A DNA stretch of 64,000 bases, from positions 1,116,001-1,180,000 of the forward strand of contig NZ_CP083666.1 of NCBI RefSeq assembly GCF_020097835.1. The letters are read 5' to 3'. The notes under the pieces are model-generated. The model was given only the letters and a program-made list of their open reading frames with translations. It had not been told where the DNA came from and did not search any database. Below are positions 43,525 to 63,286 of this stretch, one piece after another. Each line of letters opens with the position of its first letter. The stretch's first letter is position 1. The translations under genes and the position numbers were made by a program. The DNA is from Haloprofundus halobius (GTDB taxonomy: Archaea; Halobacteriota; Halobacteria; Halobacteriales; Haloferacaceae).

Positions 43525-45063
43525 ATGGCAACAGAGACGTACGTTGGCGCTATCGACCAAGGAACGACGGGCACGCGATTCATGGTCTTCGACCATAGCG
43601 GACGCGTCGTCACCAGCGCGTACGAGAAACACGAACAGATATATCCGGAACCGGGATGGGTCGAACACGACCCGGCCGAGATCTGGGAGAAGACGCAGTC
43701 TGTGATAACGACCGCGCTTCAGGACGCCGACCTGTCGGCCGACCAGTTGGAGGCTATCGGCATCACGAACCAGCGTGAGACGACGCTGCTGTGGGATGCC
43801 GACTCCGGAACGCCGGTCCACAACGCCATCGTCTGGCAGGACCGCCGGACGACCGATCGCGTCGAACAGTTGCAGGAGGAGGACAAAGTCGAGTGGATTC
43901 GCGGCAAAACCGGACTCGAAGCCGACGCGTACTTCTCGGCGACGAAAGCCGAGTGGTTGCTCGACAACGCCGACCCGATGAAGATGCAACGGGCGCGACC
44001 CGCGGACGTCCGCGAGCGCGCCGAGGACGGCGAGGTGCTGTTCGGCACCATCGACACGTGGCTCATCTACAAACTGACGGGCAACCACATCACCGACGTG
44101 ACGAACGCATCGCGGACGATGCTGTTCGACATCCACGAGATGGACTGGGACGACGAACTCTGCGAGGAGTTCGACGTCCCGATGGCGATGCTCCCGGAGG
44201 TCCGTCCCTCCTCCGACGACAACTACTACGGGACGACCGACTCCGAGGGGTTCCTCGACACCGAGGTACCCGTCGCAGGTGCACTCGGCGACCAGCAGGC
44301 GGCGCTGTTCGGCCAGACGTGTTTCGACGAGGGCGACGCGAAGAACACCTACGGCACCGGGTCGTTCATGCTGATGAACACCGGCGAGGAGGCCGTCGAG
44401 AGCGAACACGGCCTGCTGACGACCGTCGGCTTCCAGCGCTCGGGCCAACCGGTGCAGTACGCCCTCGAAGGCGCTATCTTCGTCACCGGCGCGGCCATCG
44501 AGTGGCTCGAAGACATGACGCTCATCTCGGACGCCTCCGAGAGCGAGACGCTCGCGCGGAGCGTGGACTCGACCGACGGCGTCTACTTCGTTCCGGCGTT
44601 CACGGGCCTCGGCGCGCCGCACTGGGACGGCCGCGCCCGCGGCACCATCGTCGGGATGACCCGCGGAACACGCCGCGAGCACGTCGTCCGCGCGGCGCTC
44701 GAATCTATCGCCTTCCAGACGAGGGACGTCGCCGACGCGATGGAGGCCGACTCCGGCATCGACATGACCGACCTCCGCGTCGACGGCGGCGCGGTGAAGA
44801 ACAACTTCCTCTGCCAACTCCAGGCGAACATCGTCGGGTCGACCATCGTTCGCCCGCAGGTCGACGAGACGACGGCGTTGGGCTCTGCCTACGCAGCGGG
44901 ACTGGCTGTCGGGTACTGGGAGACGGTCGACGAACTGCGTGACAACTGGCAGGTCGACCGCGAGTTCGAATCGGAGGAGAAAGACGACGTCGAGGCCCGC
45001 CACGAGCGCTGGCAGGAGGCGGTCAAACGCTCGCTCGACTGGGCGCGCGACGGGAGTGACTGA
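43525..45063 (+). CDS. glpK: Glycerol kinase
   Basis: GlpK (512 residues) phosphorylates glycerol to sn-glycerol 3-phosphate with ATP, the committed step of glycerol use in haloarchaea. The FGGY kinase motifs are GAIDQGTTGTRFMVFD, GITNQRETTLLWD, VWQDRRTTDRV, GALGDQQAALFGQ and NTYGTGSFMLMNTG, plus the second signature around LRVDGGAVKNNFLCQLQANI. The ATG at 43525 begins MATETYVGAIDQG. An in-frame upstream extension is not supported. It is followed two bases later by a candidate transporter gene. Confidence 0.97.
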   Translation: MATETYVGAIDQGTTGTRFMVFDHSGRVVTSAYEKHEQIYPEPGWVEHDPAEIWEKTQSVITTALQDADLSADQLEAIGITNQRETTLLWDADSGTPVHNAIVWQDRRTTDRVEQLQEEDKVEWIRGKTGLEADAYFSATKAEWLLDNADPMKMQRARPADVRERAEDGEVLFGTIDTWLIYKLTGNHITDVTNASRTMLFDIHEMDWDDELCEEFDVPMAMLPEVRPSSDDNYYGTTDSEGFLDTEVPVAGALGDQQAALFGQTCFDEGDAKNTYGTGSFMLMNTGEEAVESEHGLLTTVGFQRSGQPVQYALEGAIFVTGAAIEWLEDMTLISDASESETLARSVDSTDGVYFVPAFTGLGAPHWDGRARGTIVGMTRGTRREHVVRAALESIAFQTRDVADAMEADSGIDMTDLRVDGGAVKNNFLCQLQANIVGSTIVRPQVDETTALGSAYAAGLAVGYWETVDELRDNWQVDREFESEEKDDVEARHERWQEAVKRSLDWARDGSD

Positions 45064-45065
45064 CG

Positions 45066-46193
45066 ATGCTGAAACTCGGATCGTTGACCGCAGTCGGTCT
45101 CGCCGGTTTCGTTCCGGTGATGCAGACCAGTTTCGGCGTCTTCGTCGACCCGGTGATGATTCTGGCGGCGCTCGCAGGTGGCGCGTTCGGCGCGGCGCTG
45201 GGCGCGCTCCCGGCGTTCATCTTCACCGGCTTCATGGTCATCGCCGGGCAGGTCGCCGAGTACGTGAATCCGGAGGCGGCCGGTATCACGGGCGCTATCG
45301 CCTTCGGGCCGCCGTTCTCGCCGGCCATCAGTTTCGCCGGCGGCGCGGCCGCGGCGGCGTACGCCGCCAAACAGGGCTACATGGACACCGGCTTCGACTA
45401 CCACGAGGCGAAGAACATCGCCTTCGCGCAGGGGACGAAGCCCGACGTGCTTCTCGTGGGCGCGGTGTTCGGCGTCGTCGGCTACTGGCTGACTCAGCTT
45501 TCGGCCGTCTTCCTCCTGCCGTGGGACGCCATCGCGATGGGCGTCGTCCTCTCGGCGCTCATCCACCGACTCGCCTTCGGCTACTCGCTCATCGGCGACG
45601 TTCGGGGCGGCAGCCTCCTCGACATGTCTCCGTTCGAGCGCGAGGAGATGCGCGCGGGCGGCGGCGGCGGCGAAGCCGCAGTCGACGGTGGAACGGACCA
45701 ACTGCGTTCCGACGGCGGAATGGCGACGAAGTCGCGCTTCGCAGTCGAGCCGTGGCTCCCCCACCAGTACAAGTGGGTGAACGTCGCCACGCTCAGTATC
45801 TTCGGCGGTCTGCTCGGCGCGTTCATCGCGCTCGAAACCGGACTCGTCTTCCTCGGGTTCGGCATCAGCGCGGCGACGCTGGTGTTCCTAAACTGCGGCG
45901 TCGAACAGATTCCGGTCACCCACCACATCACGCTCATCGGGAGCGCGGGTGCGGTCGCCGCCGTCGGCGGTGACCCGGCCGGAGCGACGGTCGTCGGCCT
46001 CCTCGCGGGGGCGTTCTTCGGCCTCATCTCGGGACTGTTCGGCGAAGCGTTCCAGCGCGTCTTCTACGCGCATGGCGACACCCACTGGGACCCGCCGGCG
46101 GCGGCCATCGTCTTCGGGTCGCTCGTCATCGCGCTTCTGGCAATCGTGGGTATTCTCCCCGACTCGTCGTACGTGCCGACGCTCGGGCTCTAA
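45066..46193 (+). CDS. Polytopic membrane protein, candidate glycerol transporter
   Basis: A 375-residue membrane protein with roughly ten hydrophobic helices arranged in two halves, about residues 1-185 and 230-375. A polar linker rich in glycine (RAGGGGGEAAVDGG) joins them. It has no NPA motifs, so it is not an aquaglyceroporin. The ATG lies two bases after the glpK stop, and the gene is almost certainly co-transcribed with it. Glycerol uptake is an inference from context only. Conserved-looking polar spots include EQIPVTHHITLIGS and FYAHGDTHWDPP. I do not recognise a named family. Confidence 0.65.
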   Translation: MLKLGSLTAVGLAGFVPVMQTSFGVFVDPVMILAALAGGAFGAALGALPAFIFTGFMVIAGQVAEYVNPEAAGITGAIAFGPPFSPAISFAGGAAAAAYAAKQGYMDTGFDYHEAKNIAFAQGTKPDVLLVGAVFGVVGYWLTQLSAVFLLPWDAIAMGVVLSALIHRLAFGYSLIGDVRGGSLLDMSPFEREEMRAGGGGGEAAVDGGTDQLRSDGGMATKSRFAVEPWLPHQYKWVNVATLSIFGGLLGAFIALETGLVFLGFGISAATLVFLNCGVEQIPVTHHITLIGSAGAVAAVGGDPAGATVVGLLAGAFFGLISGLFGEAFQRVFYAHGDTHWDPPAAAIVFGSLVIALLAIVGILPDSSYVPTLGL

Positions 46194-46379
46194 CCAACCT
46201 CTCGTCCTCTTCGTCGGTCGGACGCAGTCGCTCGCGCTCGGCGCGAACTCCTCCTAAATCTGTGGCGTCCGCGACACGTCGAGGGCAGTCGTCGAACGGT
46301 GGGTTCTCGAACACCCGACGTACTGACGTTTCGGCGCGACACTTCTCCTCTTACCCTCCGACAGTCGCGTCTCGGTCGG

Positions 46380-47054
46380 TCACCCCAACGGTTTGGTCTC
46401 GTCTTCGGTGATTTCGGCGAGGTGGAGCGTGCTCTCGGCCAGCGAGTTGTGTGCCCGTCGGAGTCGTTCCGAGAGCGCCTGCTGTGTGATGCCGATCTCG
46501 TCGGCGAGTTCGGTGAGCGTCACGTCCCGCGGCACTTTAAAGTAGCCCCGCTGGTGGGCGACGACGAACGCCTCCCGCTGTTCGTCGGTGAGCGCGAACT
46601 CGCTGCGCCCGAACGTCTCGTCGAGTTCCGAGATTCGCTCGACGGTTATCGGGAATCCGTTCGACTCCCACTTTTCGTGCGCCGACGCGAGCTGCTCGTG
46701 ACGCGGAAACAGCGTCCGGAAGCGCCACGTACCCTCCTCCGCGGAGGCTCCGAGCAGCGTCGCCTCACCGAGTAGCGTCGCGAGCGCATCTCTAACCGGC
46801 CGCTTCCACTCCACCTGGTAGAGCCACTTTCCGTTCAGATCCGCGAGAAGGGTCGCCGCCTCCACCGACGGGTCCGCGGCGAGGGCGGTTCCGACGTCCG
46901 CGGACTCGCCATCGAACCACAGGAGAGAAGCCGGGGACGCCGCGCCGTGCGCCGCCGTTCGGAGCACGTCGATAGAGACACTCGGACATCTCTCGAAGAG
47001 TTCTCCGAGGGCGAACTGTTCGGCCGGGGTACGTAGCTCTGCGATCGTTGTCAT
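46380..47054 (-). CDS. Bat-type (HTH_10) transcription regulator
   Basis: A 224-residue haloarchaeal regulator. The N-terminal 150 or so residues form a sensory-type domain, beginning MTTIAELRTPAEQFALG. The C-terminal HTH_10 is FALTDEQREAFVVAHQRGYF followed by VTLTELADEIGITQQALSERLRRA. It is encoded between the glycerol transporter candidate and dhaM, on the dha strand but 188 bases from dhaM. A role in regulating this island is plausible but not shown. The 186 bases between it and the transporter hold nothing I recognise. Confidence 0.85.
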   Translation of the reverse strand: MTTIAELRTPAEQFALGELFERCPSVSIDVLRTAAHGAASPASLLWFDGESADVGTALAADPSVEAATLLADLNGKWLYQVEWKRPVRDALATLLGEATLLGASAEEGTWRFRTLFPRHEQLASAHEKWESNGFPITVERISELDETFGRSEFALTDEQREAFVVAHQRGYFKVPRDVTLTELADEIGITQQALSERLRRAHNSLAESTLHLAEITEDETKPLG

Positions 47055-47216
47055 TTATTCTGGTTCCTCTCTGAGCTGTCGCGATGACTGCTCTCCGGAT
47101 GCCCGTCTTCCTTGAACTGTGGTCGACGAGTAGTGAGATAAGCGGTTTCCCGACTCAGGGAGACATACATTCACACTAACCGAACCGATCGACGACCGCG
47201 GCGACGGGTCGCGACC

Positions 47217-47235
47217 GTCGGGAGGGTCTCCCGAC
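47217..47235 (-). terminator. Hairpin after dhaM
   Basis: GTCGGGAG and CTCCCGAC pair perfectly over a 3-base loop, seven bases after the dhaM stop. No T-run follows on the minus strand, so it may be a 3'-end stabiliser more than an intrinsic terminator. Confidence 0.45.
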
Positions 47236-47242
47236 TGATCGT

Positions 47243-47629
47243 TCAGTCCAGCTTTCGGTACTCTCGTGCCTCCTCAGCGGCGTTGACGACCGATTCCAGC
47301 GTCGCCTTCGACCCGCTCGCCTCGACGGCGGCGTTGAGCGCCCCTTCCAGTATCGGTGCGTCGGCGATTCGGACGGTCGCGTCGCCCATCTCCACCGCGA
47401 GCTCGGCGTTCATCACCGCGCTCCCGAGGTCGACGAGGACGACGACCCCGTCGCCGTCGTCGGCGTCGGCGATGGCGGCCTCGATTCGGTCGACGCTCGT
47501 GCCGATCCCGCCGTCCGAGTCGCCGCCGGCGGGTTCGATACGAGCGTCGCTGCCGCCCATCTGTGCGGCGATGTCACAGATCCCCTCCGCGGCCTTCTCG
47601 CTGTGAGAGACGACGGCGAGGCCGACCAT
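47243..47629 (-). CDS. dhaM: PTS-dependent dihydroxyacetone kinase phosphotransferase subunit DhaM
   Basis: DhaM (128 residues) is an EIIA-mannose-type domain that passes phosphate to DhaL-ADP. H9 in LAVVSHS is the phosphorylation site. VVLVDLGSAVMNAELAVEM and ADAPILEGALNAAVEAS are the conserved blocks. Unlike the E. coli protein it has no fused HPr or EI domain, so those must come from elsewhere in the genome. The ATG directly abuts the dhaL stop. Confidence 0.92.
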   Translation of the reverse strand: MVGLAVVSHSEKAAEGICDIAAQMGGSDARIEPAGGDSDGGIGTSVDRIEAAIADADDGDGVVVLVDLGSAVMNAELAVEMGDATVRIADAPILEGALNAAVEASGSKATLESVVNAAEEAREYRKLD

Positions 47630-48373
47630 CTACTCGTCCCCCTCGCCGAGCGGTTCGTCGGCTACCTCCTCGGGCGGCTCGTCCGGGACGTCCGGCGACC
47701 GGGCGTCGCGCACCACTTCGCCGTCGAGATACTCCTCGGCGGTTTCGAGCAGTTCCTCCAGGATGTACAGCGTGCTCGTCGCGCCGGGGTCCTGGTGGCC
47801 GACGGAGCGCCAGTCGAGGTAGGAGGCGCGACCCTTCCGCGCCCGCAGCGGCACGGTGTATCGGACGCCGCGCTCGCAAGCGTCGACTGCCTTCGAGAGC
47901 GCGGTCAGCGGCGGCAGGTCGTCCTGTTCGATGGACTTCTTGTAGGTGTGGACCACCGGGACGAGCGCGTCGACCATCGTCTTCGCACCGATCTCGGCTT
48001 TCCCGCGGTCTTGGACTTTCTGGAGATACGCCTCCGCGAACGCGACGCTCGTCTCGGCGGTGATGCCGCCTTCGAGTTCCTTGCTGGCGAGCATCGTCGA
48101 CCCGCCGTACAGCGGTCCCGCAGCGCCGCCGACGTTCGAGATGATGGTCTTCCCAACCAACTTGACGAGTTCGTCGGCCTCCATCCCGTCGGTGTCGTCG
48201 TCCTCGACAGCTTCGACGACGGCCCGAAAGCCGCGGTCCATGTTCGCCCCGTGGTCGGCGTCGCCGATGGCCGAGTCGAGTTCCGTGAGGTACGCTTTCT
48301 CCTCAGCGATGCGCGCGGCGACGTTGTCGACGGCCGCCAAGATAGCCTCCCGCTGAATCTCCGCGTCTGCCAT
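47630..48373 (-). CDS. dhaL: Dihydroxyacetone kinase subunit DhaL
   Basis: DhaL (247 residues) holds the ADP/ATP cofactor that is rephosphorylated by DhaM and donates phosphate to DHA on DhaK. The metal-phosphate site is IGDADHGANMDRG (about 36-48), and NVGGAAGPLYGGSTM is the second conserved block. It is longer than bacterial DhaL (about 210) by an acidic C-terminal tail (DVPDEPPEEVADEPLGEGDE). The ATG at 48373 is the family start. An upstream in-frame extension of nine residues is less likely. Confidence 0.93.
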   Translation of the reverse strand: MADAEIQREAILAAVDNVAARIAEEKAYLTELDSAIGDADHGANMDRGFRAVVEAVEDDDTDGMEADELVKLVGKTIISNVGGAAGPLYGGSTMLASKELEGGITAETSVAFAEAYLQKVQDRGKAEIGAKTMVDALVPVVHTYKKSIEQDDLPPLTALSKAVDACERGVRYTVPLRARKGRASYLDWRSVGHQDPGATSTLYILEELLETAEEYLDGEVVRDARSPDVPDEPPEEVADEPLGEGDE

Positions 48374-48574
48374 GTCTGGTACACGGACGGCGCGGCGCAA
48401 AGTGTTTGCGTCGCTCGGCAGTCACGACAACGTAGTCGATAGCGGACAGACGACACGACCGGTGACTTCGCTCGCGCGACGCGGTGTCGTACTCCCGCGA
48501 AGCGTCGCGCGGCGTTCGTCAGGACACGAGCGATCTGGCCGCCCCATCACTCAAAAACAGTAGGGTGGACGCAC

Positions 48575-49576
48575 TCAGTCGCGCTGCTTGAGCGCGGGCG
48601 TGTCGGCGGGCGCACCGAGCAGCTCTTTCAGTTCGTCGTCTAATCGCAGGACGGTGACCGAACAGCCCATCATGTCGAGCGACGTCATGTAGTCGCCGAC
48701 CCACGCGTCCCACGTGTCGAGGCCGTGGTCGTCGAGCACCTTCTGGACGCGCCGGTTGACGATGTACAGTTCCGACAGCGGCGTGCCGCCCATCCCGTTG
48801 ACGATGGTGGCGACTTCGTCGCCGTCGTCGAGGTCGAGGTCGTCGAGCACCTGCTCGGTGAGGTGGTCGGCGACCTCGTCGGCGCTCATCACCTCGGTCC
48901 GTTTGACGCCCGGTTCGCCGTGGATGCCGATGCCGAGTTCTATCTCGTCGTCGCCGAGGTCGAACGTCGGTTCGCCCTTCTCGGGCGTGATACAGGAGGT
49001 GAGCGCCATCCCCATCGTGCCGACGTTGTCGACGACTTTCTCGGCGACCGTCCGGACCTCCTCCAAGTCGGCACCCTCGGCGGCTTTCGCGCCGGCAATC
49101 TTGTGCACGAAGATGGTGCCGCAGACGCCGCGGCGACCGCTCGTGTACAGCGAGTCCTCGACGGCGACGTCGTCGTCGACGACGACTTCGGCCACCTCGA
49201 CGTCCTCTATCTCGGCCATCTCGCCGGCCGTCTCGAAGTTCATCACGTCGCCCTCGTAGTTCTTGACGACGCAGAGCACGCCCTCGCCGGCGTCGCAGGC
49301 GCGGACCATCTCCTCCAGTTGGTCGGCCGTCGGCGACGTGAACACCTCGCCCGCCGCCGCGCCGTCGAGCATTCCGTCGCCGATGTAGCCGGCGTGCGTC
49401 GGTTCGTGACCGCTCCCGCCGCCGGAGACGACGCCCACCTTGCCGTCGATGGGTGCGTCGGCGCGAACGAGTACGTTCGTCCCGTCGAGTCGACGAAGGC
49501 GGTCCGGATGCGCGGCGACCATCCCGTCGAGCATCTCGTCTACGTAATTCTCCGGGTCGTTGATGAGTTTCTTCAT
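48575..49576 (-). CDS. dhaK: Dihydroxyacetone kinase subunit DhaK
   Basis: DhaK (333 residues) binds dihydroxyacetone covalently and yields DHAP. SGGGSGHEPTHAGYIG is the substrate-site loop, and H219 in GIGIHGEPGV forms the hemiaminal with DHA. VNGMGGTPLSELYIV is also conserved. The ATG at 49576 starts MKKLINDPENYVDEM, as in the family. dhaL follows after 201 bases that contain nothing I recognise, an unusually wide gap for this operon. Confidence 0.94.
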   Translation of the reverse strand: MKKLINDPENYVDEMLDGMVAAHPDRLRRLDGTNVLVRADAPIDGKVGVVSGGGSGHEPTHAGYIGDGMLDGAAAGEVFTSPTADQLEEMVRACDAGEGVLCVVKNYEGDVMNFETAGEMAEIEDVEVAEVVVDDDVAVEDSLYTSGRRGVCGTIFVHKIAGAKAAEGADLEEVRTVAEKVVDNVGTMGMALTSCITPEKGEPTFDLGDDEIELGIGIHGEPGVKRTEVMSADEVADHLTEQVLDDLDLDDGDEVATIVNGMGGTPLSELYIVNRRVQKVLDDHGLDTWDAWVGDYMTSLDMMGCSVTVLRLDDELKELLGAPADTPALKQRD

Positions 49577-49776
49577 GGTGCGTGGTATCAATAGTGAAAA
49601 CGGGGCAAAAGCTTTCCTCGCTGAGAGATCCGTCTTCGGACCCGTCGAACCGAGATTTCGGTATACTGGCATCTCTGTGGTCTTCGTCGTCTACCAGCGG
49701 GACGACAGACGCGTCTCGAATATCCGACCCGCTCGCGAGAAGGCGACGTTTATCGGCTCGACGACGAACACCCGGT

Positions 49777-52371: not shown

Positions 52372-53355
52372 TCAGTCGAGGTCGATACCAGCGATGCGGT
52401 CGATGGCGACGACGAGTACGCCGCCGACGAGCGCCGCGGCGACGAAGACGCCCAGTACCTCCGTCGTCCACGACCCGCCGTGTTCGGCGAGGCTCGTCGA
52501 TAGCTGCGTGACGGGTGCACGGAGTGCACCGAGAATGAGCGCGATGAGGAACGCGAACGTCGCCTCGCGGTAGTGTTCGAGCGCCCAGTCGACGGCGTGA
52601 GCGACGGTGAACAGCCCGACGAGCGCCCCCGAGCAGAACGTGACGATGGTGACGAACGGGCCGGCGAGCGCGTCGAGGCTGCCGCCGCCGAGCAGGCCGA
52701 CCACGCCGTCTCTGAACGTCGAGAGGGCGTCGGTCATGAAGAAGTACTGCCCGAGGATAAGAAGCAGGAGCGACCCCGAGATTCCCGGGAGAATCATCGC
52801 GCTGATGGCGATGGCTCCGGCGACGAACGTCACGACCGGGCTGTGTCCGATCGCCGACTGCGCCTCGCCGGAGACGACGAACGCGAGCGCGAACCCGACG
52901 ACGGACGCGGCGATTCGGCCGGGCGTGTCGACCGACACCTCCGTGATGAGCACGAGCGCCGACGCCGCGATGAGTCCGAAGAAGAAGCCGAACGTCGACG
53001 CGGGAACCGTCTCGACGGCGACTTCGACGAGGCTCGTGATGGTGACGATGGCGGTCATGATGCCGAACCCGAGCGTCACCAGAAACGCCGTGTCCATCTC
53101 CTGAAGCGCCCCGAACGCGTCCCCGGTGTCGCCGGTGACGCCGCGGAGCACACGGAGCACGTTGTCGGCGTCGATAGCCGTCACCGCGTCGATGAGCCGA
53201 CCGTAGATGCCGGTGATGAGCGCGATGGTTCCGCCGGAGACGCCGGGAACTGCGTCCGCAGCGCCCATACAGACGCCTCTGAGGTAGATGCCCAGCCAGC
53301 CGCGGATGCCGCCGGACACCGTGTTCACGTCCGAGAGCGTCTCTCCGTCGGCCAT
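52372..53355 (-). CDS. DUF368 membrane protein, candidate polyprenyl-phosphate translocase
   Basis: A 327-residue polytopic protein with eight to ten hydrophobic helices. The signature RGVCMGAADAVPGVSGGT (about 26-43) is diagnostic of DUF368. ILPGISGSLLLLILGQYFFM is a second, related motif, suggesting two inverted repeats. Bacterial DUF368 proteins (PopT) were reported in 2023 as undecaprenyl-phosphate translocases that return the lipid carrier to the cytoplasmic side. The gene starts four bases after the aglB stop, so the two are almost certainly one transcript. By analogy it could recycle dolichyl phosphate released during N-glycosylation. That function in archaea is inference. Confidence 0.88.
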   Translation of the reverse strand: MADGETLSDVNTVSGGIRGWLGIYLRGVCMGAADAVPGVSGGTIALITGIYGRLIDAVTAIDADNVLRVLRGVTGDTGDAFGALQEMDTAFLVTLGFGIMTAIVTITSLVEVAVETVPASTFGFFFGLIAASALVLITEVSVDTPGRIAASVVGFALAFVVSGEAQSAIGHSPVVTFVAGAIAISAMILPGISGSLLLLILGQYFFMTDALSTFRDGVVGLLGGGSLDALAGPFVTIVTFCSGALVGLFTVAHAVDWALEHYREATFAFLIALILGALRAPVTQLSTSLAEHGGSWTTEVLGVFVAAALVGGVLVVAIDRIAGIDLD

Positions 53356-53359
53356 CGAG

Positions 53360-56300
53360 TTAGCTCCACACCGCCGTCGGCGCGGTCACCAGCGCGGCCG
53401 TCACATCGCGAGCGGTCGTCGCGTCGGGTGCGGCGAGCGCGCTGTCGTTGTCGGTCTCGTTGCCGGTGTCGTTCGCGGAGGTCGACGACTCGTTCGCCGA
53501 CGAGTTGTCGGTCGCGTCGCCGGAGTCGCCCTCGGCGCTGTCGTTGCCGAACGGGTCGTCGGCCGTCTCGTTTCCGGTCGTCTCGTTACCCGACTCCTCG
53601 TCGGTCTCGACCTGTAGCGGCGACTCGGTCAGTTCGACCTGCGTCGAACTGTCGTCCTCGCCGACGACCTGTGCGTCGGAGACGTTCACCGTCTCGTCGT
53701 AGATGACCTGCTCGCCCGAGTCGTTCTCGGTCGGCTGCGTGCTGACGTAGTACGGCCCCGTCGCGCGGACGCTGACGTTCGTGTACTCGTCGCCCGTCTC
53801 GTCGTAGCCGGTCGTCGAGTACGGCAGCGTCAGCTCGAAGTCGCCGTTCTCGTCGGTGTCGGCGTACTGGACGTAGGTGAACGTCTCGTTGGACGTGCCC
53901 ATCCGCATCTCGACCGCCGCGCGGACCTCGCTGTCGGCGGGCGCACCGCTACCCTCGACCGTCGCGCCGGGGACGCGCTCGAACGTCTTCACCCACTTCG
54001 GCGGCGTCTGCGTCAGGTACTGCGAGTCGAGCCCGGTCATCTGCGAGGTGCTGAACAGCTCCTGCAGGTACGACCGCGACTGCGTCGCCGACGACTCGCT
54101 CACCTTCACGAGGCGGTAGTGCTCCATCGCCTCGACGCGTTCTTCGGGGTACGGACCGACGCCACCGACCTGCGCGGTGCCGTCCTCCTCGACGTAGTCG
54201 CGGGCGGCGCTCATGTTGTCGAACGTCCGCAGCAACGTCGCGTTCTCACCCTCACCGGCGGCCGTCGAGACGGTGACCTCCTCGCCGGTCTGCTGGTTCA
54301 TCGCCTGCGTCTGCTCCCAGTCGACGACGAACGGCTGCGGGTCCATCGCGCTGCCGTGGTACTCGTAGAGGCGGACCATCGTGCTGTCGTAGTATCGCTG
54401 GTCCTTCAGGAGGAAGCTCGTGGTGAACTCCTCCCCGTAGATGCGCTGGTAGAAGTCGTCGTTCGAGAGGCTCTCGTCCTCGTCGTAGAACACCACCGGC
54501 GCGCTGAACTTCTGACTCGTCGAGACCATCTCCCAGTCGACCATCACGTACCGGGTCTGGTTGCCCTCGGTGCTCTGGTTGGCGAGGACGGCTTCGGACT
54601 GCTCCTCGCTCGGTGCGAGCAGGAAGTTCGCTGCGGAGGTCGCCCCCTGCTGGAACGGGTTCGCGTTCGGAATCCGCTCGCTGCCGAGCGTTATCCAGTG
54701 ACCGTAGTCCCACCACGACATGACGCCGTACGCCCCTTCGGGGTAGTCGTAGTCGCCGTCGGCGGGTTTCTCGAAGCGGTCGTAGTACCCCAGCCCGTCG
54801 GCGTTGCCCGCGCCGCCGTAGTTCCCTTCCTCGGGCGTGTTGTTCGACAGCCAGTCGAGGCTGTCGTCCCACTGGGTGTACGCGCCGGGACCGTTGGCGG
54901 CGCCGACCTGCTGGGCCGTCGCCGTCTGGCCGCCGAGCGAGACGAGAAGCACCGGCGTCGTGATGAGCATGATCACCGTCGCGACGGTGAGCACCTGATA
55001 GAGCTCGATGTCGTCGGTGACGCGGGTGACGGATCTCCGGAGACCGAGGTAGCCCAACAGTTCGCCGAGGAGGAACGCGTTCATCGTGACGACGACGAGC
55101 GCGAGGTAGTAGTTAAAGCGCAGTTGCGTGAACGCCGCCGCGGTCATGAACGCCGCCCAGACGACGACGAGCAGGTGTTCGGACCGGTAGCTCGTCAGCA
55201 TCGTCGCGCCGACGATGAGCCCGAAGACGACGATGAGCCCCAGCAGCGCGTGGTCGATGCCGAGCGCGCCGCCGATGGCTTTCGGTACCGACGGGGCGAG
55301 ATACAGCAGGCCGACGACGGCCACCGAGCCGGCGACGTAGCCGACCTCGCGCGTATCGCCGCCGCGCAGCAGCGGCTTCGCGAGCATCCACGTCGCCGCG
55401 GCGACGCCCGTGAAGATGGCGAGGCCGTACTCGCCGAGTAGCTGCATCGTCGCCGTCGTTCCGAACTGCGAGAGCGTGTTCGGGTCGAGGAACGGCTGCG
55501 CCTCGCTGATGGTCCGGGTCCGTGCGCCGGCGCTGAACCCGAGAATCCGGTTGAAGTTGTTGGTCAGCTGCTGGAACGCGTCGGGGAGGACGACGGCCAT
55601 CAGGCCGAGCGAGACGGCGATCGCGCCGCCGACCGCGGCGGGGTACAGAGAGACCGAGAGGTCGCGGGACTCGAACTCGCGGGCGAGCCACGCGAGGAAC
55701 ACACAGCCCGCGCCGACGCCGAACGCCAGCACCGGCTGGATGAGCGAGAACTGCGTCGCGCTGAACTCGAACGCGTCGATACGGAGGGTCATCAGGAGGG
55801 TCGTGACGCCCATCGACACCGCGCCCGCGAAGGCGATCGGTTCGGGCGACTCGCCGTTGACGGTGTCGCTTACGATCTTCAGCGCGAGGAACAGGCCGAC
55901 GACGCCGACGAGGAGGACGCCGGGGGGCCAGACCCACATGTACAGAGAGAGGGCGACGCCGGCGAGCGCGGCCCACTTCACCGGCGAACGGAGCGCGTCG
56001 CGGTCGCGGTCGGCGACGAGTTCCCAGATGGGCTTCTCGCGCTCGGCGACGGCGAACGCGACCATGAACGCCAGAATCGCGACCGCCATGAAGAACGGCT
56101 CGACGCCGTTGTGGTCGGAGACGCCGACGAGCGACCGCTGGAGGAACGACCCCGGCAGCAGCATCAGGATGACCGCGCCGAACAGCCCGCCGAGGCGGCC
56201 GCCGAGGCGCTTGCCGATGTAGTACACCGGAATCGCGGTCAGTGCGCCGAAGACGGCGGGCGCGACGAGCAGCGTCTGGGCGACGAGTTGGTCGCTGGGA

Positions 56301-56641
56301 CTGCCGAGACCGAGTATCAGGGCGACGGTCGCGACGAGCTGGTCGTACAGCGTCCCGAACTGTCCCTGCGTCGTCCCGTACGGGAAGTAGGTCCACGGGT
56401 CGAACGGCATGGTGAAGGGCCAGTTCCGGACGGTGTACTCGACTTCGCGGAGGTGGTACCAGGCGTCGTTGCCCGAGAAGACGACGGTACCGTCGTCGGT
56501 GACGTAGTTGCCGTAGCCCTGCATCCGTATGTAGAGCATGACGGCAACGATCCCGAGGAGGGCGGGAACGTGGTACCAGTCTTCGAGACGGTCGAGGTAG
56601 GAGTCCTCTGTCTCCTCGACGCTCTCGGTTCGATGACTCAT
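53360..56641 (-). CDS. aglB: Oligosaccharyltransferase AglB
   Basis: AglB (1093 residues) transfers the dolichol-linked glycan to Asn in N-X-S/T sequons on the outer face of the membrane. About 13 hydrophobic helices occupy the first half. The first external loop holds FSGNDAWYHLREVEY, with the catalytic acidic residues, and SLVGVSDHNGVEPFFMA follows. The WWDYG motif is at about 643-647 in VMSWWDYGHWITLG. The C-terminal half is soluble and extracellular. Near the end (about 1019-1068) there are eight N-X-S/T sequons. The TATA-like GCTTATG on the minus strand (about 56668-56674) is 27-33 bases upstream. DUF368 follows directly, and the flippase precedes. Confidence 0.96.
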   Translation of the reverse strand: MSHRTESVEETEDSYLDRLEDWYHVPALLGIVAVMLYIRMQGYGNYVTDDGTVVFSGNDAWYHLREVEYTVRNWPFTMPFDPWTYFPYGTTQGQFGTLYDQLVATVALILGLGSPSDQLVAQTLLVAPAVFGALTAIPVYYIGKRLGGRLGGLFGAVILMLLPGSFLQRSLVGVSDHNGVEPFFMAVAILAFMVAFAVAEREKPIWELVADRDRDALRSPVKWAALAGVALSLYMWVWPPGVLLVGVVGLFLALKIVSDTVNGESPEPIAFAGAVSMGVTTLLMTLRIDAFEFSATQFSLIQPVLAFGVGAGCVFLAWLAREFESRDLSVSLYPAAVGGAIAVSLGLMAVVLPDAFQQLTNNFNRILGFSAGARTRTISEAQPFLDPNTLSQFGTTATMQLLGEYGLAIFTGVAAATWMLAKPLLRGGDTREVGYVAGSVAVVGLLYLAPSVPKAIGGALGIDHALLGLIVVFGLIVGATMLTSYRSEHLLVVVWAAFMTAAAFTQLRFNYYLALVVVTMNAFLLGELLGYLGLRRSVTRVTDDIELYQVLTVATVIMLITTPVLLVSLGGQTATAQQVGAANGPGAYTQWDDSLDWLSNNTPEEGNYGGAGNADGLGYYDRFEKPADGDYDYPEGAYGVMSWWDYGHWITLGSERIPNANPFQQGATSAANFLLAPSEEQSEAVLANQSTEGNQTRYVMVDWEMVSTSQKFSAPVVFYDEDESLSNDDFYQRIYGEEFTTSFLLKDQRYYDSTMVRLYEYHGSAMDPQPFVVDWEQTQAMNQQTGEEVTVSTAAGEGENATLLRTFDNMSAARDYVEEDGTAQVGGVGPYPEERVEAMEHYRLVKVSESSATQSRSYLQELFSTSQMTGLDSQYLTQTPPKWVKTFERVPGATVEGSGAPADSEVRAAVEMRMGTSNETFTYVQYADTDENGDFELTLPYSTTGYDETGDEYTNVSVRATGPYYVSTQPTENDSGEQVIYDETVNVSDAQVVGEDDSSTQVELTESPLQVETDEESGNETTGNETADDPFGNDSAEGDSGDATDNSSANESSTSANDTGNETDNDSALAAPDATTARDVTAALVTAPTAVWS

Positions 56642-56859: not shown

Positions 56860-58320
56860 CTAGCGCATCTCGCCCGTCAGGTCGCGAACGACCCACCACG
56901 CGTCGTTTCTGAGGCGACCGTTCGCCGCGAGCAGCGACGCGAAGTAGGCGAGGCCGCCGACACAGAGCACGAGAGCGAGCGAGAGTACCCCGGAGACGCC
57001 GCCGAGAAGCACGTACACGGCGGCGACGACGAGCATCATCGACAGCGTCGCCGCCGCCTGACTCCCGACGTCGGCGGCCACTTCCCGCGTCGGTCTGTAT
57101 TCGAGATTCCGCCACAGCAGCAGGCAGCTGCCGCCGAAACTCAGCGTGGTCACGAGACCGAGGCCGATGGTCCCGGCCAGCTCGGCCAGCGGGAGGACGA
57201 AGATCGCGTACGTCACGATGAGCACGACCGAACTCGACGCGCTGATGCGCGGCCGATTCGTCCCGAGGAAGTACGATTCGAGGACGCTCCGGTAACCGTT
57301 TGCGAGGTTCGCCAGCGCGAGCACGGCGATGAGCAGGTTGCCGACGCCGAGGACGACACCGCCGAACGAGACGGTTCCGGGGTCGGTGCCGTAGACGACG
57401 CGGAGCAGGTCGTTGCCGACGACGAGGCCGCCGCCGAGCGCCGGAATCGCGAACAGCCCGGTGTACGTCAGCGACTTGGCGAGCAGTTCGCGTATCCGGT
57501 CGCCACGGTCGTTCGCTTTCAGTCGGGAGAACTCAGGCAACGAGACGTCCGACAGCGCCGACGAGAACAGCATCGCCGCCTCCGTCAGCGTGAACGAGAT
57601 CTTGTACAGCCCGGCCGCGCTCGTCCCGAACAGCTGTCCGAGGACGAGGTAGTCCGCCTGCTTGAACAACTGCGACCCGAGCGACTGGAGGTAGGTGTAC
57701 TTCGAGAAGGAGACGAAGTCGCCGACGAGTTCGCGCGACGGGAGCGCCGGAATCACCCGCGCGTAGCCGAGATACGCGACGAGAAACGTCGCGAACTGCC
57801 CGAGGACGAGCCCCCACAACAGCGCGTAGACGCCCTGACCGGCCACCAGAAGCGCGGTCTGAATCCCGACGATGACGACGTACCGACCGTTCTCCAGAAA
57901 GCCCGCGAGTGCGACCTGTCCTTTGCCTTCGAGAAACGCGCCGGTCAATCGCATCAGACTCCACGAGAGGATGCCGAGCGGAACCAGTAGCGCCGCCTCG
58001 GCGTCGAGGATGTCGTTGACGAGTGGGGCGGCCGCCGCAAAGGCAACCGCCGACAGCGCCGTCCCGACGAGGACGATGAGGGCGCCGCTGGTGAAGTGTT
58101 TCGCCTGATTTTCGCCCTCGCTCACCCGCTTGGTGACGGCGCTGAACAGTCCGAAGGTGACCATCGTCGCCGCGGCCATCTGGAAACTCGTGAAGATGGC
58201 GTAGACGCCGAGCCCCGTCGTTCCCAGTAGCTGCGTGAAGTACACCGTCCCGGCGAACCCGGCGACGGTGCCGAGGACGTTCGCGACGAACCGCTTCGAC
58301 ACCTCCGCGCCGACGTTCAT
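56860..58320 (-). CDS. Oligosaccharide flippase (Wzx/RfbX family), AglR-like
   Basis: A 486-residue MOP-superfamily protein with about 14 hydrophobic helices. It starts MNVGAEVSKRFVANVLGT, a typical flippase N-terminus. Members translocate lipid-linked glycans across the membrane. In Haloferax volcanii AglR fills this role near AglB. Here it is upstream of aglB on the same strand, so flipping of the dolichol-linked glycan is a reasonable inference. The ATG shares one base with the stop of the preceding phosphoesterase gene (TAATG), so they are translationally coupled. The last helices and the C-terminus are intact. Confidence 0.85.
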   Translation of the reverse strand: MNVGAEVSKRFVANVLGTVAGFAGTVYFTQLLGTTGLGVYAIFTSFQMAAATMVTFGLFSAVTKRVSEGENQAKHFTSGALIVLVGTALSAVAFAAAAPLVNDILDAEAALLVPLGILSWSLMRLTGAFLEGKGQVALAGFLENGRYVVIVGIQTALLVAGQGVYALLWGLVLGQFATFLVAYLGYARVIPALPSRELVGDFVSFSKYTYLQSLGSQLFKQADYLVLGQLFGTSAAGLYKISFTLTEAAMLFSSALSDVSLPEFSRLKANDRGDRIRELLAKSLTYTGLFAIPALGGGLVVGNDLLRVVYGTDPGTVSFGGVVLGVGNLLIAVLALANLANGYRSVLESYFLGTNRPRISASSSVVLIVTYAIFVLPLAELAGTIGLGLVTTLSFGGSCLLLWRNLEYRPTREVAADVGSQAAATLSMMLVVAAVYVLLGGVSGVLSLALVLCVGGLAYFASLLAANGRLRNDAWWVVRDLTGEMR

Positions 58321-59867
58321 TATTCGAGGTATCCGAGTTCGCGCAGGCGGGATTTGACCTCCGTCTCGCGCTCGTCGTCGCCGGAGACGCCGCCCTCGCT
58401 CACCGCGCCCCCGCCGACGAAGTCGTAGTAGTCGGGGTCGCGCTCCGCGGCGTCGCTACCGGACGCGAACACGTCTAGCACGTCGCCATCTATCGACTCG
58501 GGGAGGCGACGGCCGAGCGCGTGCAATACTGTCGGCGCGATGTCGGTGATGTGAGCACTCTCGACGGTGCCGGTACGGAACGACGGGCCGCGCGCGAAGA
58601 AGATGCCGTTGCGGGCGTGGCCGCTCGTCGAGACGTCGAACAGCGGCGACTCCGCGTCGAACCGCGAGGAGGCGTGGACCTCGGGCGTCTCGATTATCAT
58701 GGCGAGGTCCGGCGTGTGCGGGCCGCCGCGGTCGAGTTCGACGAAGCGTACGTCGAGTCCCACGTCCTCGGCTGAAGCGGCGAGTGCTTCGCGGGCCTCC
58801 GCGACGATTTCGGCGCGCTCGTCGGCGTTGTCGGTGAGCGCGTACACCATCGTCGTCTTCTGGCCGATGTCGGCCAGCGCACGAGTCCGCTCCCAGTCGA
58901 TGCGACCGAGGCTGATGGCGTTGTCGAGACCGAGCGTCGACCCGCTCGGGAGGTCGGCCACGTAGCTCTCGGGGACGACGTTGCGCGCGAGCGTCAGCAG
59001 GCCGACTCGACCCAGCACGTCGCTGGCGGCGTCGCGGAGTTTCCCGAGCGCCTGTTTCCTGCCGTCGCCGCTCTCGTTGAGGTGGACGAGACCCGCCCGC
59101 GACAGCGCGTAGTTCGGTGCGAACTTCTTCGACACGGCCTCGAAGCCGTGGTCGCTCATCACGACCACGTCCTCGTCCTCGTGGGCGTCGAGAAACTCGC
59201 CGAGTCGTTCATCGACGCGGTGGTACACCTCGAACAATGGATTGGAGTCGTCGGGGTCGGTCGACCAGTAGTGGTGGGCGACGCGGTCGGTGGCGCGGAT
59301 GAGTCCGACCGCCAGTTCGGGGTCTTCCTTCTCGATGAAGTGCTCGAAGCCGTCGAAGCGCTTGTCGACGAGCGAGAGACTCTGGTCGACGTACTTTCGG
59401 CTTCCAGGCGTCGCGTCGTTGCGGAGTTTGTACTCGCCGACGACCGACTCCAGCTCGTCCCAGCGCTCCTCTGGGTAGCTGTAACTCTCCTTGTACTCGG
59501 GGGCGGCGGCGACGATGGTGCCGTCGATGGCCTGCCACGGGTACGACCCGGGGATGTTGAACACGACGCAGCGACCCCCTTGGTCGTCGACGACGTCCCA
59601 CATCTTCCCGGGGATGAACTCGTCGTGGCTCAAATCTAGCTCGCGCGTCTCGCGGTTGAAGTGCGTGAAGCCGTATACGTCGAGTCGCTCGGGGTTTCTG
59701 CCGGTGGCGAAGGCGGGCCACGCCGGAACCGTGATCTCCGGGATGGTGCTCTCTAAGTCGCCGTGGACGCTCTCCTCGTAGAGGCGGGCGAACGTCGGGA
59801 GGTGGCCCGCGTCGACCCACGGACGAAGCAGCGAGTGGGTCGCGCCGTCCAAGCCGAGGACAATCAT
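58320..59867 (-). CDS. Alkaline-phosphatase-superfamily phosphoesterase (LGYLE tail)
   Basis: A 515-residue enzyme of the type I phosphodiesterase/nucleotide pyrophosphatase group. The metal site is D7 in IVLGLDGATH. The nucleophile is probably T46 in PEITVPAWPAFATG, and the second metal-binding segment is VVMSDHGFEAVS. No signal peptide is seen, so it is probably cytoplasmic. It ends LRELGYLE. A TATA-like CTTTTAC on the minus strand (about 59891-59897) is 25-30 bases upstream of the ATG. The flippase start overlaps its stop, linking it to glycan or lipid-carrier metabolism. The substrate is unknown. Confidence 0.85.
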   Translation of the reverse strand: MIVLGLDGATHSLLRPWVDAGHLPTFARLYEESVHGDLESTIPEITVPAWPAFATGRNPERLDVYGFTHFNRETRELDLSHDEFIPGKMWDVVDDQGGRCVVFNIPGSYPWQAIDGTIVAAAPEYKESYSYPEERWDELESVVGEYKLRNDATPGSRKYVDQSLSLVDKRFDGFEHFIEKEDPELAVGLIRATDRVAHHYWSTDPDDSNPLFEVYHRVDERLGEFLDAHEDEDVVVMSDHGFEAVSKKFAPNYALSRAGLVHLNESGDGRKQALGKLRDAASDVLGRVGLLTLARNVVPESYVADLPSGSTLGLDNAISLGRIDWERTRALADIGQKTTMVYALTDNADERAEIVAEAREALAASAEDVGLDVRFVELDRGGPHTPDLAMIIETPEVHASSRFDAESPLFDVSTSGHARNGIFFARGPSFRTGTVESAHITDIAPTVLHALGRRLPESIDGDVLDVFASGSDAAERDPDYYDFVGGGAVSEGGVSGDDERETEVKSRLRELGYLE

Positions 59868-60088
59868 GCCGGAAGCGATGTGGGTTCCGAGTAAAAGCCG
59901 TTCGGTCTCTGAAGCAAAGGGCGTCGTTTCCAGCTATTTCCGCAGGAGGCATAGAGTAGAGAGCAGAAACGAACGGTCTCCGCGGAAGCCCCCGGCCTCT
60001 TCCGAAGTCCCACCCGGAGTGAACGGTCAGTCGGTCATCGCTCCCGGTTTGTTCGACTCCCACTCGCCAAATAGTGGCCTGCGTTCAA

Positions 60089-61726
60089 CTACTCCAGATA
60101 CCCCAAATCGGCGAGTCGACTCGCCACCTCGTCGTCGTCGGTCCGCGCGCGCCCGCCCACGTCGAACTCGGGGTACGTCTCCGGGTCGGGTCCCGAAACA
60201 CAGCCGAGCACCGACCCGTCCATCTCGACGTCAGGCGCGATACCGAGGGTCGCCAACACGGTCGGCGCGACGTCGAACAGGTGCGCGCCCGAAAGGTCGG
60301 CGTCCGCGTCGACGCCCGCGCCCGACACCGAGACGACGCCGTCGAGCTTGTGGTTCCACGGTTCGGGGTCGCTGAACTGCTCGCCGACGAGCGCCGACAG
60401 CGAGTGCTCGAACTCAGTAGGGACGGTGACGATATCGACCGCTTCTTCGGCGTACGGTCCCTCGAACACCTCCTCTCGCGGAGCTACCCGCTCGAACACC
60501 GGCTCTCCGTCGGGCGTCTCCGCTGCGCGCAGTTCGTCCATCAGCGCATCACGGACGGCGTCGTACTCGTTCTCCGGAACCGCTCCCTCGGGCTCTCTCC
60601 CCACGACGTTCAGCCGAATTCCTAACTCCGAGGGCGAGCGGAGGTACGCCTCAGATGCCGCGAAGTCGACGGACTCGCTGGCGGCGAAGACGACGGAGAC
60701 GGGAACGTGGCGGCCGACGAACTCCGCGAGGCCGACTCGGTCGAGAATCGCCTTGCCGCGCTGGTAGGTCAGCCCTGCGCGCGCTGCTGCGGCGGCGACG
60801 GTCGAGAGTAGCCGTGTCCCACTATCGCCGCCGTCGCGGCCGCGTTCTCCGGTGTCGCCCGACCCCGATTCGTCGGTCAGTTCGTCGTCCTTTATCTGGA
60901 ACCACGAGGGGACGTCCTGCCCGCCGCGGGCGGTGACGACTCGGCCCTGTTCTTTCAGGAACTGGTTGACGCGGAACTCGTAGCCGTCGTACTCGCCCAT
61001 GCCGTGGTCGCTGGCGACGACGACGACGTCGGGGTCACAGACCTCCAAAATATCGGTGAGTTCCTCGTCGACGGCGCGGTAGATGTCTCGGACTTTCGCC
61101 TCGTCGCCGGGGAAGTCGTGGAAGACGGCGTCGGTCTTCTGGAACTGGACGAAGCCGAACTCGGGGTCGAAGCGGTCGGCGAGATAGCGGAACGCCCCGC
61201 CGCGGAGGTGCGTCAGTTCGACGTAGTCGCGGAACTTCGCCTCGTCGCTGCGGCGTTCGTCGGTCTCCCGTTCGGCGTAGACGCGGTAGGGGCCGACCGC
61301 CTCCTCGATCTCGTCGAGCAGTCCCTCGGGATGACAGCGCGGGCTCTCCGCGGCCAGATAGCCGGGCACGAGCGCGCCGTCGAACTCCCGCGGCGGGGCG
61401 GTGACCGGCGCGTTGACGACGACGCTCGTCATCCCCGCCTCGTCGGCGTACTCCCACATCGTCCGCGCCTTCACGTCCGTCGAGTTGACGATGTCCCACT
61501 CGTAGCCGTCGAAGGAGAGGAAGTCGAAGACGCCGTGTTTTCCGGGGTTCTTGCCCGTGTACAGCGAGGGCCACGCGCTCGCGGTCCACGGCGGAATCTG
61601 CGATTCGAGCGGCGCAGTCGCGCCCGCCTCGAACAGCGAGCGGAGCGTCGGCAGGTCCCCGTCGTCGAACAGCGGTCGAAGGACGGGCAGACAGGCGGCG
61701 TCGAGTCCGACCAACAGGGTTCGCAT
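60089..61726 (-). CDS. Alkaline-phosphatase-superfamily phosphoesterase (LGYLE tail)
   Basis: A 545-residue relative of the neighbouring phosphoesterase. D9 in LLVGLDAACLP and probable nucleophile T48 in IPPWTASAWPSLYTG are visible. VVVASDHGMGEYDGYEF holds the second metal set. It ends LADLGYLE. The ATG at 61726 is preferred over 61738 because the TATA-like GTTTTA (61751-61756, minus strand) then lies 25-30 bases upstream. Its own promoter suggests separate expression. The substrate is unknown. The 221 bases after it (59868-60088) contain nothing further that I recognise. Confidence 0.83.
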   Translation of the reverse strand: MRTLLVGLDAACLPVLRPLFDDGDLPTLRSLFEAGATAPLESQIPPWTASAWPSLYTGKNPGKHGVFDFLSFDGYEWDIVNSTDVKARTMWEYADEAGMTSVVVNAPVTAPPREFDGALVPGYLAAESPRCHPEGLLDEIEEAVGPYRVYAERETDERRSDEAKFRDYVELTHLRGGAFRYLADRFDPEFGFVQFQKTDAVFHDFPGDEAKVRDIYRAVDEELTDILEVCDPDVVVVASDHGMGEYDGYEFRVNQFLKEQGRVVTARGGQDVPSWFQIKDDELTDESGSGDTGERGRDGGDSGTRLLSTVAAAAARAGLTYQRGKAILDRVGLAEFVGRHVPVSVVFAASESVDFAASEAYLRSPSELGIRLNVVGREPEGAVPENEYDAVRDALMDELRAAETPDGEPVFERVAPREEVFEGPYAEEAVDIVTVPTEFEHSLSALVGEQFSDPEPWNHKLDGVVSVSGAGVDADADLSGAHLFDVAPTVLATLGIAPDVEMDGSVLGCVSGPDPETYPEFDVGGRARTDDDEVASRLADLGYLE

Positions 61727-61804
61727 GGTTTCCCGCACAGGCTTGGCGGGTAAAACGTTCCCTATCTGTTCGTTCGAGGTACGACTCGGGGCGGGCCGGG
61801 CGAG

Positions 61805-63286
61805 CTATTCGAGGTATCCCAGTTCCCGCAGGTTCCGCTCGACGCCTGCGCTGTACTCTTCGTCCCCGCTTCCGTCGACGACGTACTCCTCGCCGAGCGT
61901 CTGGGTCAACTGCTCGCGCAGCGAGTCGGCGAGTTCCGGGTCGTCGACTTCCTCGCCGGTTCGTACGTCGCACAGTCGTTCGCTGCCGTCCGAGCGGCGC
62001 TCGAACCGATGCGTCGCCGTCCGAATCGACTTCTTCCCCGTCTCGAACGCGGCGAGCGTCTCCCTCGACACCTCGGCGGCCGCCTCCCGGTCGCGCTCGT
62101 CCATAATCGCCGTCTCGGCGAACACGGCGTCGTGCTCGTTGCCCGAATCGACTCCGTTGTCCGCGTCGTCACCGAACAACGCCCGCCCGCTCGTCGCCTC
62201 CGGGGCCTCGACGCCCGAGAGGTCGCACAGCGTGTCGAACAGGTCGACGAGCGAGACGAGGTCCGAGCGTCGCTCCCCGGCGGGAACCTCGGGGCCGCTC
62301 ACGACGAGCGGGACGTGCAGCAGTTCGTCGTACAGGAAGTAGCCGTGGTACATCGTTCCGTGCTCGCCGAAACACTCGCCGTGGTCGGAGGTGAGCACGA
62401 CGTGCGTCTGCTCGCGCCGCCCCGTCTCGTCGAGCCAGTCGAACAGCGCGCCGAGTCGGTCGTCCAGATAGCGGACGCAGGCGCGGTACCACGCTCGAAG
62501 GACCGAGAGTTCCGCGTCGGTGAGATAGTCGCCGGTCTCGTACTGGCGCATCGCGATGCTCGTCGCCGACGCGCCGTCGGCCGCCGCGAACAGCCGTTCG
62601 GGTCGCACGTCGTCGCGGTCGAGGCGCACCGTCGAGGGGAGAAACTCCTCCAGTAGTGGAAGCAGGGGTCGGTGGAGTTCGGGCGTCTCCTCGCGCATGT
62701 ACGGCTTCGGCACCCGGTACGGCGCGTGGACCGTCGTGAGATTCGCCATCGCGAACCACGGCGCGTCGGCCTCGGCGACGAACCGGCGGAGTTTCTCCAG
62801 TTTGATCTCGGTGTAGTAGTCGTTGCCGCGGGTGGCGATTCGGAACAGGTCACGGCGGACGAACCCGTCGGTGAGCAGTTGCCGGAGGTACGGCAGCGAC
62901 GGTCGCTTGGCCATCTCCTCGTACACCTCGTAGTACTCGTCGAAGCCGCGGTCGAGACCGACCGGCGACCCCATCTTCGACGGCCCCGGAATCCCGATTG
63001 TGTCGTACCCCGCGTCGCGGAACCGCTCGGCCATCGTCGTCTCGTCGGCCGACAGCGTCGGCCACGCGCCGGCGAACCCCGTCTCGGAGGGGTAGCGCCC
63101 GGTGAACAGCGCGCCGTGCGACGGCGGCGTCCACGACCCGGCGGCGAACGCGTTCTCGAACGTCGTCCCCTCGGCGGCGAGGCGGTCGAGGTTCGGCGTC
63201 GGTGGTGCGTCGTCGTCGTAGCAGGAGAGCGCGTCGACGCGGAGGGTGTCGCAGACGACGAGGAGGACGTTAGGTGGAGGGCCCAT
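61805..63286 (-). CDS. Sulfatase-like alkaline-phosphatase-superfamily hydrolase with Thr nucleophile
   Basis: A 493-residue enzyme with the sulfatase fold. D13 in VLLVVCDTLRVDALS and VVLTSDHGECFGEHGTMYHG are metal-binding. The nucleophile position reads SWTPPSHGALFTGRYP with T53. Formylglycine sulfatases need Cys or Ser there (C/S-x-P-S-R), so this is more likely a phosphoester or phosphoglycerol-type hydrolase or transferase than a sulfatase. It ends LRELGYLE. The ATG at 63286 is supported by a TATA-like CGATATTA on the minus strand (about 63308-63315). An upstream frame to 63877 is antisense to the glycosyltransferase and is not coding. No signal peptide is seen. Confidence 0.85.
   Translation of the reverse strand: MGPPPNVLLVVCDTLRVDALSCYDDDAPPTPNLDRLAAEGTTFENAFAAGSWTPPSHGALFTGRYPSETGFAGAWPTLSADETTMAERFRDAGYDTIGIPGPSKMGSPVGLDRGFDEYYEVYEEMAKRPSLPYLRQLLTDGFVRRDLFRIATRGNDYYTEIKLEKLRRFVAEADAPWFAMANLTTVHAPYRVPKPYMREETPELHRPLLPLLEEFLPSTVRLDRDDVRPERLFAAADGASATSIAMRQYETGDYLTDAELSVLRAWYRACVRYLDDRLGALFDWLDETGRREQTHVVLTSDHGECFGEHGTMYHGYFLYDELLHVPLVVSGPEVPAGERRSDLVSLVDLFDTLCDLSGVEAPEATSGRALFGDDADNGVDSGNEHDAVFAETAIMDERDREAAAEVSRETLAAFETGKKSIRTATHRFERRSDGSERLCDVRTGEEVDDPELADSLREQLTQTLGEEYVVDGSGDEEYSAGVERNLRELGYLE

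Follow-up and report, generated by a model that had tools for sequence, protein, structure and literature searches.

In most Halobacteria the gene for the archaeal oligosaccharyltransferase AglB is followed closely by a gene of the DUF368 family, and the encoded membrane protein is probably a PopT-type translocase that brings dolichyl phosphate back to the inner leaflet once AglB has acted. The arrangement was analyzed in a window of 64,000 nucleotides from Haloprofundus halobius, with the following features:

52372..53355, minus strand: DUF368 (PopT/VCA0040-like) polytopic membrane protein of 327 aa; intact ORF, PF04018 E=1.5e-64
53356..53359, minus strand: spacer CTCG of 4 nt, separating the aglB stop TAA from the DUF368 ATG; read from the DNA
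53360..56641, minus strand: aglB, archaeal oligosaccharyltransferase of 1093 aa; intact ORF, TIGR04154, PF02516, PF22627, PF18079
56642..56859, minus strand: gap of 218 nt 5' of aglB, with space for a promoter of its own
56860..58320, minus strand: neighbouring Wzx/MOP-type flippase-like gene; PF13440 E=1.3e-22, PF01943
58320..59867, minus strand: type I phosphodiesterase/nucleotide pyrophosphatase-like gene, as context; PF01663 E=1.1e-37

A sequence-only reading of this locus had assigned the downstream gene to DUF368 and had described it as fused to aglB with near-zero spacing. The assignment was confirmed by a score of 218 bits against PF04018 (cutoff 26, model positions 1-229 of 246), and a profile search found this to be the sole PF04018 gene of the Haloprofundus genome. 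The upstream protein scored 926.8 bits against TIGR04154 (cutoff 450, model positions 1-830 of 831) and carries the Pfam domains STT3, AglB_core and AglB_L1. The close spacing also held, as the junction reads TGG AGC TAA CTCG ATG; a GGAG located 8 nt 5' of the DUF368 ATG, inside the end of aglB, is a possible ribosome-binding site. The word "fused" was wrong in the strict sense: the 4-nt spacer separates two distinct ORFs and a gene fusion was rejected. A sigma-70 promoter scan upstream of aglB gave no matches, the sigma-70 consensus not being applicable to archaea. The closest named genome found, Haloprofundus marisrubri, is 93% identical and has the same gene order. Two type I phosphodiesterase-like genes and one sulfatase-like gene stand ahead of the Wzx-like gene (58320-63259, minus strand), the nearest of them sharing one base with the start of the latter, and these genes may belong to a cluster for surface glycans. 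Elsewhere in the window, the genes at 43525-49672 are, judging from sequence features, presumably glycerol kinase and dihydroxyacetone kinase-like genes, and by appearance they belong to ordinary glycerol/DHA metabolism.

To determine how widely the pair is conserved, 242 Halobacteria genomes were searched with profiles for DUF368 and for AglB-type STT3, and each was detected in 239 of them; one fragmented genome (G021) has AglB and no DUF368. The genes were scored as linked when DUF368 lay at most 3 kb downstream of aglB. Coordinates of both were available for 228 genomes, 161 of which were linked, every one on the same strand and with DUF368 downstream; less than 700 nt separated the two profile matches in 152 of the 161, an additional distant copy was present in 15, and the other 67 genomes carried only a distant copy. 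Inspection added nine linked genomes, raising the count to 170/237 (72%), so that the claim of a linkage shared by related genomes was not refuted. The linked genomes span 9 of the 11 Halobacteria families, while the remaining two families contribute a single genome each, of which one lacks DUF368 and the other is unlinked. Random placement would yield well under one linked genome, by a hand estimate that takes about 3 kb in 3.5 Mb for each genome. These genomes share ancestry and are not independent samples, yet with nine families represented the link is far beyond chance. Among 26 directly adjacent named loci, for which DUF368 start sites are candidate starts, a possible start lies between -11 and +7 nt from the aglB stop in 18.

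The sequence-only reading had further proposed that, together with the upstream flippase, the locus would form a block for outward flipping, transfer and carrier return. The surroundings of 30 linked loci were compared, of which 20 came from outside the window's family; as these loci were chosen for the link, the linkage within them is no evidence. In three of the 30, the DUF368 ORF located by the profile search was overlooked by a simple gene caller. Other synteny with the window was lost in the compared loci while the aglB-DUF368 pair was kept. A Wzx-like gene is found 5' of aglB in few relatives (Haloprofundus, Halobium, Haloferax mucosum and one genome of another family). The flippase was consequently rejected as part of a conserved module and the three-part block is not a conserved unit, whereas the transfer-return pair is. 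Directly upstream of aglB, a divergent glycosyltransferase gene occurs in 15 of the 30 loci (L259, L266-L271, L274-L277 and others), and the three that were tested are AglG, above the NCBIfam cutoff; an older aglG-aglB-DUF368 core has perhaps been changed in the window.

Outside Halobacteria, DUF368 was detected in about 60 of about 303 genomes of the same phylum. Of the 54 non-halobacterial genomes checked, none had DUF368 and an STT3 gene less than 5 kb apart, and eight had them within 25 kb. In the sampled genomes the linkage is limited to Halobacteria. As most non-halobacterial genomes are without DUF368 and adjacency was seen in 0/54, AglB has no general requirement for DUF368.

In bacteria, proteins of the DUF368 and DedA families carry undecaprenyl phosphate (Und-P) back to the inner leaflet (PMC9876793; PMC12826051), and Und-P builds up outside in bacterial DedA/DUF368 mutants (PMC12826051). 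The window protein belongs to the same Pfam family as PopT and VCA0040, PF04018, which it matches strongly, and it has the motifs of that family. A Haloferax volcanii homologue, HVO_RS12060, partly complements a Vibrio cholerae delta-vca0040 mutant, and the idea that DUF368 may move dolichol phosphate was raised in the same work (PMC9876793). The window protein differs in falling below both NCBIfam equivalog cutoffs, for the PopT and VCA0040 types (NF052563/NF052564; 89.1 and 186 against 400 bits). Its gene, unlike theirs, adjoins that of an archaeal oligosaccharyltransferase, and the expected carrier is dolichyl phosphate and not Und-P, in a setting without peptidoglycan. HVO_RS12060 belongs to the same halobacterial clade as the window protein and to the same aglB neighbourhood: H. 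volcanii aglB is HVO_RS12050 (PMC5131992), two locus tags away, so the protein with reported activity in V. cholerae is encoded near aglB. Tag order and the arrangement in sister species suggest that HVO_RS12055 is aglM, the gene at which the Haloferax glycosylation-gene cluster ends in PMC5867893. The window protein shares 57-62% identity with the DUF368 copies of Haloferax. In several genomes of Haloferax, Halogeometricum and Haloquadratum, aglB and DUF368 are separated by a UDP-glucose dehydrogenase gene, which the first two genera carry on the opposite strand. In several Haloferax, unlike in the window, it is convergent, which makes co-transcription of aglB and DUF368 unlikely there.

In the mechanism that we propose, the pair would act as a co-expressed, putatively co-transcribed terminal unit of N-glycosylation. 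AglB, at the outer face, would take the glycan off dolichyl-phosphate-glycan and attach it to Asn, leaving dolichyl phosphate in the outer leaflet. Since dolichol monophosphate is the carrier of most archaeal N-glycans characterised (PMC4476749), the lipid released by AglB would be dolichyl phosphate itself and a pyrophosphatase would not be required. DUF368 would then bring the carrier to the inner leaflet, where sugar can be reloaded, both substrate and direction being predicted; the pool served is probably the general one of dolichyl phosphate, of which AglB is a main source in haloarchaea. The recycling role put forward by the sequence-only reading thereby remains the likeliest explanation, resting on the bacterial family function, the complementation by HVO_RS12060 and the monophosphate carriers, and we infer that DUF368 is needed for N-glycosylation.

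Two other assignments of the transport step were weighed. A place beside aglB suits either direction of transport, and no DolP-tetrasaccharide flippase is named in PMC3871713, so DUF368 could flip dolichyl-phosphate-glycan outward, as the unnamed haloarchaeal tetrasaccharide flippase, in place of recycling the carrier. This is most improbable given that bacterial DUF368 acts on bare Und-P, that the H. volcanii copy works there (PMC9876793) and that the proposed glycolipid flippases are MOP-type proteins such as AglR and Agl15. The UptA/DedA translocases of Und-P (PF09335) have the same proposed task as DUF368 but belong to a different family and do not stand beside aglB in the window. DedA proteins were present in all 116 Halobacteria tested, in 1-6 copies, so redundancy is possible. 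With bacterial DedA and DUF368 proteins sharing the task (PMC9876793; PMC12826051), DedA might be the main recycler in haloarchaea and DUF368 a minor or conditional back-up; this we hold to be very unlikely, and against it stand the link of DUF368 to aglB and its retention in nearly every genome surveyed.

To trace the history of the linkage, a tree of 185 DUF368 proteins was computed (quick IQ-TREE, LG+G4, SH-aLRT only). Halobacterial DUF368 is monophyletic (SH-aLRT 100) and every deep branch of this clade holds linked copies, from which the linkage is probably ancestral to the class. Most unlinked copies, 60 in number, fall in one nested clade (SH-aLRT 99), which takes in Haloarcula, Natrialbaceae-type genera and others and groups with the linked copies of the window's family (SH-aLRT 94). 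The simplest reading is an ancestral pair followed by the spread of one free-standing derivative, probably in part by transfer, that took the place of the linked copy in many genera. Some of the unlinked cases are of another kind: Halobellus has kept DUF368 adjoining an aglM-like UDP-glucose dehydrogenase gene, and its aglB has moved away. No common partner gene was found for the unlinked copies, whose neighbours include MutS-like, chaperonin, glycosyltransferase, peptidase and other genes.

The protein itself was examined by alignment of 64 homologues, which revealed 21 invariant columns, and by an AlphaFold2 model built from the 64-row alignment (mean pLDDT 91.7, pTM 0.87, all helical). Two similar PG(V/I)SG motifs and a polytopic helical fold, the marks of the DUF368 family, were found. 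Alignment and model together delimit the motifs as follows:

53227..53268, minus strand: first repeat-like motif MGAADAVPGVSGGT, residues 30-43
52771..52812, minus strand: second repeat-like motif around MILPGISGSL, residues 182-195

Invariant residues are M30, D34, P37, G38, S40, G41 and T43 in the first motif and M187, P190, G191, S193 and G194 in the second. In the model, helices break at residues 36-40 and 189-193, which correspond to the invariant motifs PGVSGG and PGISGS, and such breaks are consistent with re-entrant hairpins. A search for relatives of solved structure gave none that were convincing by sequence and none by fold at E<=0.001. The invariant residues are identical in linked, free and non-halobacterial copies, and the free clade thus shows no sign of lost function. 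The only residue separating linked from free copies, position 244 (A versus G), was rejected as uninformative.

How closely DUF368 is tied to AglB was assessed from genomes in which the two are parted. DUF368 is kept in G225 (97% complete) and G117 (100% complete), in which no STT3/AglB was detected; at the G225 locus DUF368 is followed by the same genes as in a linked relative, and aglB is missing upstream. Either DUF368 is useful without AglB, or aglB was lost recently, or the assemblies have gaps. Recycling for the general pool is made likelier than strict dedication to AglB by these two genomes, and an exclusive dedication is weakened by them together with the 67 genomes that have only an unlinked copy. 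The same observations, along with the absence of a conserved partner in the free clade, the reported ties of DUF368 to alkaline and high-salt fitness and its association with halophiles (PMC9876793), could be accommodated by a broader explanation: DUF368 would be a general salt/pH-stress polyprenyl-phosphate translocase for all carrier-dependent pathways, such as exopolysaccharide and other glycans, and its adjacency to aglB would be an ancient layout retained through operon inertia, with no special meaning for N-glycosylation. We regard this as rather unlikely, because the two-gene link has lasted in nine families while other synteny is gone and the genes overlap or nearly touch at many loci. 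A stronger form of the coupling, in which AglB and DUF368 would be a physical unit handing released dolichyl phosphate directly to the translocase, is unlikely too; such a coupled transfer-and-return machine would be ancestral to Halobacteria and would later have been replaced in many genera by a free-standing translocase of single origin.

With carrier return after AglB as the preferred role, DUF368 directly after aglB in most haloarchaea is a concrete candidate for archaeal carrier-lipid recycling, and the link turns a general guess about the family into a specific gene for deletion in a tractable archaeon. No paper on the DUF368-aglB link, and no transport or deletion data for DUF368 in any archaeon, were found in a literature search of incomplete coverage; the gene belongs to a known family, and its genetic setting was not found described there.

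Two further genes of the genome, both outside the window, were noted. A BacA/UppP-type undecaprenyl pyrophosphate phosphatase gene lies at G000:C1:34211-34963 (PF02673 E=6.9e-46), and none was found in the Haloferax volcanii control. A second, divergent STT3/AglB-like gene at G000:C1:111805-113847, with an open frame of about 1016 aa, scored 143 bits against TIGR04154, under the cutoff. Low-scoring second STT3-like genes likewise occur in many Halobacteria, and the one reported here could be relevant to the unidentified second oligosaccharyltransferase mentioned in PMC3871713.
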